Below are positions 8,030-10,231 of a stretch of DNA of 43,302 nucleotides, one piece after another. A program made the translations under genes and the position numbers. How positions within the stretch are numbered: position 1 is the first letter of the stretch; every line of letters starts with the position of its first letter. Source of the stretch: a virus; the IMG/VR virus record IMGVR_UViG_3300003690_003728, positions 1 through 43,302 of that record. The stretch is one strand, 5' to 3'. The notes under the pieces were generated by a model that did no database searches, was not told the DNA's origin, and worked only from the letters and a program-made list of their open reading frames with translations.

Positions 8030-8307
8030 GCGGTCACCTCTAAAGTGTCAGCATGAGTCACGATTTCGTGCTCATCATCCAGGCGTTCAGCCAGTTCTTC
8101 GTAAAGTTCGCGGGGCGACCAGTCGTGGAGAGTGAGCCATGTATTCTGCGGGCATTCCAATAACAAGGCATTTGCCTTGTCTGGGTAATTGGTACGAACT
8201 TTAATTTCGATGCATATAGTTACCGTGCCACTCAACGTTGGCAGATCGAGCCTGCCGCCTTTGCGGCACAACGTACGCAGCGCACGTTCTTGTAGACGGT
8301 TCATCAT
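8026..8307 (-). CDS. Hypothetical early protein
   Basis: A 93-aa acidic-ended protein. The N-terminus (NRLQERALRTLCRKGG) is basic, the centre is mostly beta, and the C-terminus (WSPRELYEELAERLDDEHEIV) is an acidic helix. The start is ATGATG, so either Met at 8307 or 8304 works; the first overlaps the upstream TGA. No family recognised. Second gene of the leftward operon. Confidence 0.55.
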   Translation of the reverse strand: MMNRLQERALRTLCRKGGRLDLPTLSGTVTICIEIKVRTNYPDKANALLLECPQNTWLTLHDWSPRELYEELAERLDDEHEIVTHADTLEVTA

Positions 8308-8495
8308 GCTGCACCGCCCTGGCGGCGATAGCGCGCCGCTTCTTCAGGGGTGAGCAAATAGATAGTGCGGGATTTGTTACCAGCCAGGCGGGCGGCAACG
8401 CGCCCCGTGACGTGTTGCATGGCCTGGATGGCGATGTGGCTGTTACCTGCGGCCGGGTGCATGTACACCCGGCATGGTTGGGCATTGGTTTGCAT
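8304..8495 (-). CDS. Small hypothetical protein, first gene of the leftward early operon
   Basis: A 63-aa basic protein. The middle and end (AARLAGNKSRTIYLLTPEEAARYRRQ) suggest a small DNA-binding or regulatory peptide, though no family is recognised. It is the first gene after the leftward promoter, in the position where lambda carries N, but nothing in it resembles N. GGAG lies 8 bases before the ATG at 8495. The leader upstream holds the repressor-type operators. Confidence 0.55.
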   Translation of the reverse strand: MQTNAQPCRVYMHPAAGNSHIAIQAMQHVTGRVAARLAGNKSRTIYLLTPEEAARYRRQGGAA

Positions 8496-8530: not shown

Positions 8531-8559
8531 AGTTTTGTACACCTTAAGGTTTTTGTCAA
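8531..8559 (-). promoter_or_regulatory. Leftward early promoter (PL-like)
   Basis: On the minus strand a perfect -35 TTGACA (8554-8559) is followed after 17 bases by a weak -10 AAAACT (8531-8536). The palindrome ACCTTAAGGT fills the spacer, and an AACC-N5-GGTT site overlaps the -35. This is the only good promoter candidate before the early operon that begins at 8495. The -10 has only three consensus matches, so the exact start point is uncertain. Confidence 0.65.
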
Positions 8560-8586
8560 CCGTTAAGGTTAATAACCTTTTCGGTT
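8541..8586. promoter_or_regulatory. OL-like operator cluster (three sites)
   Basis: Three related palindromic sites: ACCTTAAGGT (8541-8550), AACCGTTAAGGTT (8558-8570) and AACCTTTTCGGTT (8574-8586). The last two share AACC-N5-GGTT with sites beside the repressor gene. The middle site matches the one at 9933-9945 in 12 of 13 positions. They cover the spacer and -35 of the leftward promoter, so the repressor or the Cro-like protein would shut this promoter off. The outermost site runs into the stop codon of the TerB/BRCT gene. Confidence 0.7.
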
Positions 8587-9202
8587 ACTTGAAGGCGTAT
8601 TTCATAAAGTGATCCTCATCAATGATCATGACGGGATGTCCGCCATCTTTGAGAGTTACTGCTGCTTCGATCTTGCGACCATGGCTGGAATACATCCATT
8701 CTTCGTTAGCGATCGTGCCGATGACCAGGTAGTTGACCCGCTTCGACATGGATGATTTGCATTTACCGCCACGCTCTGTGACCAGCGCGGTGCATTCTTT
8801 GCGTGGCCCGTAGGCCATGATGCCCGTAAAGAGAAATGTGCGGTCGACAAACTCAATATCGAGCATTGGTTTGTCGAGGGGGAGGCGAGAAGGGCTGCGG
8901 TAGGCTTTCAGTTCGCCGTTGTCACCAGTCAGAGCGTGGATCATTTCCAGCAGCTCGGCTGACTCGTCATCATCAAGGTGGCCGTCAGACAGCATTTGAT
9001 TAACACGTTCGTACAGAATGCGATAAACCGGATCATCCTGATAGGCACTGGTCTGATTCAGCCAGTATTGCAGAAATTCGGCTTCGGCCTGAACGATCTT
9101 GCCATCGGCAGCGAGGCCACGGGCTAGGCCGATGAGCTCATCGAGTGTGCGGCTCTGGACGCGCGCCTGGGCGTACTGCCTCAGCGGTGCATATTCTTCC
9201 AT
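8585..9202 (-). CDS. TerB-like/BRCT domain protein in the rex-like position (possible lysogenic defence or conversion gene)
   Basis: A 205-aa protein. Residues about 20-95 are helical with two acidic DG-x-I/L-x(3-4)-E type turns (DGKIVQAEAE and DGHLDDDESAE), resembling TerB-like or EF-hand-like stress modules. Residues about 119-200 form a BRCT domain like that of bacterial NAD-dependent DNA ligase: RTFLFTG, then ALVTERGGKCKSSMSKRVNYLVIG, then KIEAAVTLKDGGHPVMIIDEDHF. No ligase catalytic part is present. It lies 25 bp behind the repressor, on the same strand, with GGGG 7 bases before its ATG. It should therefore be expressed during lysogeny, like lambda rexAB. A role in exclusion or DNA-damage response is inference from position and domains. 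A BRCT fold usually binds partner proteins or DNA ends. Confidence 0.8.
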   Translation of the reverse strand: MEEYAPLRQYAQARVQSRTLDELIGLARGLAADGKIVQAEAEFLQYWLNQTSAYQDDPVYRILYERVNQMLSDGHLDDDESAELLEMIHALTGDNGELKAYRSPSRLPLDKPMLDIEFVDRTFLFTGIMAYGPRKECTALVTERGGKCKSSMSKRVNYLVIGTIANEEWMYSSHGRKIEAAVTLKDGGHPVMIIDEDHFMKYAFK

Positions 9203-9227: not shown

Positions 9228-9896
9228 TCAGAGAACCTTAACGAGGTACAGCCCCTTGCCGACGACTTCCCAGGTGTCGTCCATCTTCATGTACTGTGGT
9301 TCCCATTTTGGATTCTTGGCGCAAAGGTAATAGTTTCCATCCTCGTACCGGATCTCCTTGAATGTCCCGCTATTGTTCTGTGTGCAGCGGGCGTAGACGA
9401 CATCCCCAGACATCCATTCAGCCTCAGGATCAATCACGATACGATCCCTGGGGTTGAAGTCTGGCAGCATGCTGATGCCATCGAGTATCAGCACGAAGGC
9501 CCGATTGCTGCATGGACCTGGGGCTGGTACGTACTCCTCGATATCGGCCTCCTCAAACGCCTCTTTGAGGGCGCCGGCTGTTGCCATGCCTATTACGGGC
9601 AGCATGTGGCCCACTGGGTGAAGCACGCTGGCATCTTCTAAATGATATACCGGTGAGTTCTCTTGGGTGTGTATGCCCGCGTTTCGTATGTCGTCTAAAT
9701 AGTTGCTGGGAAGGCTTAGCTTCTGTTCTATGTGGCGCGCTAACTTCTCGCCTATATTTTTGGTGGGATTTCTGCCCGCAAAGCTGCTGCACTGGCTGGG
9801 ATGGCGATCCAGAGCGTCAGATAGTTTCTGCAGATTCATGTGTCGCTGCTCCATCACCTGATGGAGAAGCTCTAAGCGCAAGGCATGTATATTCAT
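9228..9896 (-). CDS. CI-like repressor with S24 (LexA-type) peptidase domain
   Basis: A 222-aa lysogenic repressor. The N-terminal part (about residues 5-70) is a helix-turn-helix of the kind NLQKLSDALDRHPSQCSSF, with GRNPTKNIGEKLARHIE after it. The C-terminal S24 domain has the cleavage pair Ala107-Gly108, the nucleophile Ser142 in DGISMLP and the base Lys180 in TFKEIR. All self-cleavage residues are present, so it should be inactivated by activated RecA after DNA damage. I chose the ATG at 9896, since the longer frame to 9983 reads through the operators and promoter. No clear Shine-Dalgarno precedes this ATG. It is divergent from the Cro-like gene. Confidence 0.92.
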   Translation of the reverse strand: MNIHALRLELLHQVMEQRHMNLQKLSDALDRHPSQCSSFAGRNPTKNIGEKLARHIEQKLSLPSNYLDDIRNAGIHTQENSPVYHLEDASVLHPVGHMLPVIGMATAGALKEAFEEADIEEYVPAPGPCSNRAFVLILDGISMLPDFNPRDRIVIDPEAEWMSGDVVYARCTQNNSGTFKEIRYEDGNYYLCAKNPKWEPQYMKMDDTWEVVGKGLYLVKVL

Positions 9897-9914
9897 AAGG
9901 TTATTTTTCGATAT

Positions 9915-9945
9915 AACCGCCAAGGTTGCGATAACCGTTAAGGTG
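9915..9945. promoter_or_regulatory. OR-like operator pair between repressor and cro-like gene
   Basis: Two sites in the divergent intergenic region: AACCGCCAAGGTT (9915-9927) and AACCGTTAAGGTG (9933-9945). They sit 18 bases apart start to start, nearly two helical turns, so dimers could bind side by side. A single half-site AAGGTT (9897-9902) lies next to the repressor start. The sites share AACC-N5-GGTT with the cluster at 8558-8586, which ties both promoters to one regulator. Confidence 0.7.
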
Positions 9946-9952
9946 TTGCTTT

Positions 9953-9958
9953 TATAAT
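9953..9958 (+). promoter_or_regulatory. Rightward early promoter (PR-like), -10 box
   Basis: A perfect TATAAT lies 46 bases before the cro-like ATG, with the operator 9933-9945 in the spacer region. No good -35 is seen at 16-18 bases; the nearest TTGCGA (9926-9931) is 21 bases away. Repression by an operator between -35 and -10 is plausible. The start point would be near 9965. Confidence 0.6.
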
Positions 9959-10003
9959 CTCTAGGTGTCATTCTTAATGGCATGCCACATTGGAGATACA
10001 GCC

Positions 10004-10231
10004 ATGCAGCTTCGTGAATACTTAAAACAGCAAGATGAAGCCCAGCTTGAACAATTTGCAGAGCGGGTCGGTACGTCCACTAAGTACCTAAGAGCCCATG
10101 TGATTAGCGGTAGCCGAGGAGCTTCATTGAAATTTATGCGCGCACTTGCCCGTGGCAGTGAAGGTTCAGTTTCACTGTCAGAAGTTTTGCAGCACTACGG
10201 TGTTAGCAAGGAAGAGCTAGAGGCCGCCTAA
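10004..10231 (+). CDS. Cro/YdaS-like DNA-binding regulator
   Basis: A 75-aa protein with a helix-turn-helix: LREYLKQQDEAQLEQFAERVGTS, then TKYLRAHVISGSRGASLKFMRALARGS. This pattern fits small Cro-like or YdaS-like regulators divergent from phage repressors. It likely binds the same operators and shuts off the repressor promoter early in lytic growth. GGAGAT (9992-9997) is 6 bases before the ATG at 10004. The open frame from 9965 would place the start at the promoter itself, so it was not used. Confidence 0.75.
   Translation: MQLREYLKQQDEAQLEQFAERVGTSTKYLRAHVISGSRGASLKFMRALARGSEGSVSLSEVLQHYGVSKEELEAA

Follow-up and report, generated by a model that had tools for sequence, protein, structure and literature searches.

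A gene directly behind the repressor in the viral sequence analysed here (the window, the whole stretch of 43,302 nucleotides) encodes a TerB-like/BRCT protein of PHROG 3989, and is cargo in the position that rexAB holds in phage lambda, absent from a close relative. The recurrence of this family at the same place in unrelated viruses, together with its links to bacterial anti-virus systems, suggests a probable role as an accessory to defence, so far uncharacterised. As a tentative best explanation, somewhat short of an even chance, we propose that the protein is an adaptor made in the lysogen, which would bind phosphorylated DNA ends or nicks and steer end-acting enzymes onto incoming phage DNA, thereby protecting the lysogen.

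Gene position, operon layout and operators

The TerB-like/BRCT gene (8585..9202, minus strand, ATG start, 205 aa) follows an S24-type self-cleaving repressor gene (9228..9983, minus strand; Pfam Peptidase_S24, 9e-17) that heads a presumed repressor-BRCT operon. The preliminary description of this DNA placed the gene on the same strand as the repressor with a gap of 25 bp, and the open reading frames and their coordinates agree exactly; the gap contains AAAGGGGAA, a likely ribosome-binding sequence. Operator clusters had also been described on either side of the gene, and sites resembling AACCGTTAAGGTT are indeed present at 8539-8586 and 9915-9945. A scan of the whole window for copies of AACCGTTAAGGTT with up to 3 mismatches gave 20 matches, against 6.3 +/- 2.6 in shuffled sequences, with no shuffle at 20. 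The left cluster (8539..8586) has three sites, one of which (8574-8586) overlaps the stop codon of the BRCT gene, so that the gene extends to the left operator, as in lambda, where rexAB fills the interval from cI to that operator. A candidate -35 box of the left promoter, TTGACA at 8559-8554 (minus strand), was called by eye, and a consensus promoter scan returned no promoter, this candidate included. The two sites of the right cluster (9915..9945), assigned upstream of the repressor reading frame region, fall within that frame as listed (start 9983); the listed start may therefore be too early, with the true start probably at an internal ATG downstream. A small divergent gene with weak HTH matches occupies the cro position (9965..10231, plus strand).

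Among annotated phages, Halomonas phage H4907 is the closest, 26% of a 24-kb query aligning to it at 80% identity. The left operons of H4907 and the window correspond gene by gene (87, 35, 64, 80, 71, 74, and 56% identity), and the two S24 repressors are 37% identical. The first left-operon gene of the window (8304..8495, minus strand, 63 aa), 87% identical to its H4907 counterpart, marks an empty site in H4907, where it adjoins the repressor directly; the 106-bp interval between the two carries a TTGACA box and no gene. It is this empty rex slot in a syntenic phage that identifies the BRCT gene as added cargo.

The window gene thus shares with lambda rexAB its place behind the repressor, its strand, its end at the left operator, and, probably, expression in the lysogen. 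Unlike rexAB, it is a single gene with different domains, no rex family (RexA/RexB) appears among the PHROG matches of its protein, and any exclusion by it is putative. A closer parallel in family is found in Vibrio phage K139, with the gene order cI-orf2 (BRCT)-glo-int, in which glo is annotated as involved in phage exclusion. K139 orf2 belongs to the same family and occupies the same place as the window gene, and differs in its length of 301 aa, its two TerB-like repeats, and the adjoining glo.

Linkage to repressors across relatives

The comparison set of relatives drew on phages and plasmids, together with 80 loci from genomes and 80 from viral contigs; the viral contigs yielded no relatives with a single-protein query and required an alignment query. 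With linkage defined as an S24 gene on the same strand no more than 500 bp upstream, 76 of 171 loci have a repressor immediately upstream: 64/80 viral, 7/80 genome, 4/10 annotated records, and the window itself. Because P. aeruginosa prophages that hardly differ from one another account for many of the viral loci, it is fairer to count lineages, defined at 82% identity: the S24 gene is upstream in 15 of the 26 that include a member from a virus, a plasmid, or the window, and in 1 of the 51 known only from genome loci. The association first noticed in the window recurs in other phages. The upstream S24 repressors form nine clusters at 45% identity, and a phage-type regulator with only an HTH domain lies upstream in four further loci.

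Other settings were also observed. In two other P. aeruginosa elements (L002 and L007), the genes preceding the BRCT gene encode an integrase and a BamE-domain protein rather than a repressor. Gammaproteobacterial MAGs (L080, L084-L087, and L089-L091) carry family members within a conserved neighbour set, mostly with two TerB-like repeats as in K139.

Domains of the protein

The 205-aa protein matches PHROG 3989, a family of unknown function, at 8e-62, and has homologues of near full length in 17 phage records. Its BRCT domain (8594..8860, minus strand; residues about 115-203) falls below the Pfam cut-off when the single protein is searched (17.3 bits against 21.3), with Pfam BRCT matching 49 of 66 relatives at E<=0.1. 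A family profile finds RFC1 (5.7e-8) and LigA (1.3e-6) among PDB sequences, and Foldseek with the AlphaFold model (pLDDT 88.8) finds LigA (1.4e-5) and the RFC1 BRCT domain (1e-4), including the RFC p140-dsDNA complex 2k7f over 84 columns at 2.8 Å. The profile search and structure prediction proposed in the preliminary description therefore both give BRCT, and its assignment to the ligase type is borne out; the family profile and the predicted fold together identify the C-terminal half as a true BRCT domain of the LigA/RFC1 type.

The pocket residues of phosphate-binding BRCT domains (T/S-G, R, and K) are present in alignment with LigA. Across 66 diverse relatives, G127, R134, and K177 are invariant and T126 is conserved in 64, with serine in the other two; K177 aligns with the lysine of the LigA G-S-K. 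By our own matching of residues, these positions would correspond to the phosphate pocket of XRCC1 and to RFC1, such that the window protein appears to share both fold and pocket with the BRCT domains of LigA and RFC1 and with XRCC1 BRCT1. Unlike LigA and RFC1, the family has an insert with an invariant tryptophan, W169, and the motif W-x-[HY]-[ST]-[ST]-[HY]-G-x-K-I, and the window protein has neither ligase nor clamp-loader domains. The same type of BRCT domain is also found in a DNA polymerase III epsilon family.

In domain searches, matches are confined to the BRCT part, in keeping with the earlier statement that the protein has no enzymatic part. Phage records including OQ504958, BK061587, and KT887557 label the family 'NAD-dependent DNA ligase'. 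This label is wrong, since the catalytic ligase domain is absent; identity as an NAD-dependent DNA ligase was rejected for want of the adenylation and OB domains.

The N-terminal part comprises four helices (about residues 5-92) and is acidic, as described previously, with 19 D/E against 7 K/R. The naming of this part as TerB-like holds as a resemblance of motif, two D-G-x(5)-E pairs being conserved (D33/E40 in 66/66 relatives and D73/E80 in 65/66). Membership of TerB is not established, with a weak Pfam TerB match in 4 of the 66 relatives and a profile-profile (HHalign) probability of 28%.

Partner protein and defence neighbours

In 57 of the first loci, almost all of them from Pseudomonas, the BRCT gene has as its neighbour the gene for an unnamed protein of ~130 aa, here f2, mostly just upstream and, in L071, L198, L202-L204, and L207, just downstream. 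Searches of Pfam, PHROG, and PDB sequences gave no match for f2, and its model, whilst good (pLDDT 86.5), has no fold match in the PDB. In two genomes, f2 forms an in-frame C-terminal extension of GajB (L040:2621-4990 and L253:4213-6402), and the BRCT gene follows. The GajA proteins of these two loci are 33% identical and the BRCT proteins 75%, with the alignment of their DNA limited to f2 and BRCT (980 nt, 73%), which indicates attachment of the pair to two divergent Gabija systems. The window differs in having no relative of GajA or GajB, and Gabija systems as described do not include the BRCT gene.

A second link is to Shango, which consists of SngA (TerB), SngB (ATPase), and SngC (helicase). 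In L041, SngA-SngB-SngC is followed by f2, with an internal TAG, and then by the BRCT gene, and in L008 and L082 SngB-SngC lies on the same strand as the BRCT gene; L077/L079 carry less weight because their Shango genes are convergent with it. Shango therefore resembles the family in its TerB-type part and, at L008, L041, and L082, in neighbourhood, whereas SngA pairs TerB with TerB_C and lacks BRCT, and the window has no relative of SngA-C. Additionally, an f2-like domain is fused to an RNase_T exonuclease (L209:4326-5369), and the N-terminal half of f2 alone to a 5'-3' exonuclease (L210:3501-5300). LigA lies directly upstream of the BRCT gene in L046 (12-bp gap) and L069 (8-bp overlap) and nearby in L064, and in Hymenobacter the family has exonuclease neighbours. 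What these neighbours share is enzymatic action at the ends or nicks of DNA. The f2 pairing, the fusions of GajB and f2 followed by BRCT, the Shango links, and the f2-exonuclease fusions were identified in this analysis.

In one further locus (L191:5443-5946), an S24 repressor and f2 are followed by a different BRCT protein, of 167 aa and without the TerB-like part, as if partners had been swapped. In many Pseudomonas genomes (L012-L042), the f2-BRCT pair is flanked on one side by a GH15 glycoside hydrolase gene and on the other by a gene for an alpha/beta hydrolase or a DJ-1/PfpI protein, and no phage or defence gene was recognised at these GH15-side loci.

Most loci in bacterial genomes have no known defence system next door. 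Of 298 genomes in a sample centred on P. nitroreducens, 28 contain a family member, and only two of those loci lie beside a recognised defence system, one being that of the centre genome itself. Further large Pseudomonas neighbours, searched with defence and Pfam models, are mostly ordinary (e.g. integrase, oxidoreductase, and peptidase), with candidate-defence matches to PDC-S42 (L255) and PDC-M28 (L258). In the window, BLASTP against all open reading frames found no relative of f2, GajA/B, SngA-C, LigA, or DnaQ.

Proposed function and alternatives

In the adaptor model that we infer, co-transcription of the BRCT gene with the repressor would yield the protein in the lysogen, where its BRCT domain may bind a phosphorylated DNA end or nick whilst a partner is held by the TerB-like helices. 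Phage DNA, incoming or replicating, would thus be marked at its free ends or nicks, and a nuclease or helicase recruited or licensed, giving the lysogen protection from other phages. For many relatives this partner may be f2 with end-acting enzymes (Gabija, Shango, or exonucleases); in the window phage it would be a host protein or an unrecognised one. That such a partner must be assumed, the window having no f2 or other tested candidate, is the weakest point of the model.

Support for the adaptor comes from the rex-slot layout, the operators, the empty site in H4907, the repressor linkage, and the gene order of K139. Furthermore, the conserved pocket and the RFC1 fold match, which extends to a complex with dsDNA, are consistent with binding at ends, as the RFC1 BRCT domain is known to prefer 5'-phosphate ends. 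Against this reading, the 5' phosphate is of little importance once RFC is docked on its core, and BRCT pockets may instead bind phosphopeptides or poly(ADP-ribose). The f2-extended GajB proteins with BRCT at two Gabija loci, the Shango neighbours, and the f2-exonuclease fusions also favour the adaptor, and the rarity of known defence systems beside bacterial-genome loci counts against it. According to one report, Gabija of P. aeruginosa prefers the ends of injected DNA and prevents circularisation (PMC12407980), and sensing of DNA termini by GajB has been proposed, as discussed in PMC10681800; a GajB fused to f2 and accompanied by an end-binding BRCT protein would fit both. A literature search found no functional study of the BRCT gene and no paper combining Gabija with BRCT. 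The defence role first suggested from position now has links beyond position, namely the Gabija and Shango neighbours, the GajB fusion, and K139 glo, whilst the abortive-infection form of that suggestion is unlikely if the protein is to act alone. A stand-alone abortive-infection toxin was rejected, the protein having no recognisable effector and the window no tested partner.

Gene neighbourhood alone cannot separate a weapon from an antidote, and the same end-binding chemistry would serve equally for self-protection or counter-defence, in which the protein caps ends or nicks and shields the DNA of prophage, phage, or host against RecBCD or against defences that seek ends, Gabija among them, acting as the immunity part where it lies beside Gabija. 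An f2 domain inside GajB could restrain as well as target, and phage end-binding proteins are reported to alter sensitivity to Gabija, though upward (PMC12407980). This role is nevertheless unlikely, as a place on the repressor transcript implies that the protein is made during dormancy, a stage at which free ends are absent from phage DNA, and Gabija is absent near most relatives. A general helper in DNA repair or ligation, present as cargo that is neutral or of mild benefit, with no anti-phage role, would suit the LigA genes that adjoin or lie near the BRCT gene, the exonuclease neighbours in Hymenobacter, and the BRCT type held in common with the DNA polymerase III epsilon family; it sits poorly with a patchy spread through the genomes sampled, with repeated carriage on phages, and with attachment to two divergent Gabija systems, and we consider it slightly less probable still.

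Close linkage to self-cleaving S24 repressors could instead point to control of the switch, with the protein reading DNA damage as ends or nicks and tuning induction through the repressor or its RecA-driven cleavage, and BRCT domains of this type do work at damaged DNA. However, the gene also follows HTH-only regulators, and occurs without a repressor beside Gabija, Shango, LigA, or GH15 genes, whilst nine clusters of repressor make a common contact surface unlikely; of the alternatives considered, this appears the most improbable. Returning to the adaptor, a broader form of the proposal, possible but doubtful, is that f2 and the TerB-BRCT protein constitute a portable module for recognising ends or nicks, used by varied nuclease and helicase defences (Gabija, Shango, and exonucleases); prophages would then express the BRCT half, by itself or together with f2, from the repressor transcript, as the subunit that targets end-acting enzymes to competing phages.

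Significance

These observations bear on the question of how end-acting defences such as Gabija tell incoming DNA as foreign. With its conserved phosphate-pocket residues, its association with two divergent Gabija systems, and its repeated placement on repressor transcripts, the family offers a concrete and easily tested candidate for a targeting subunit, and a testable function for both PHROG 3989 and the unnamed f2 family.
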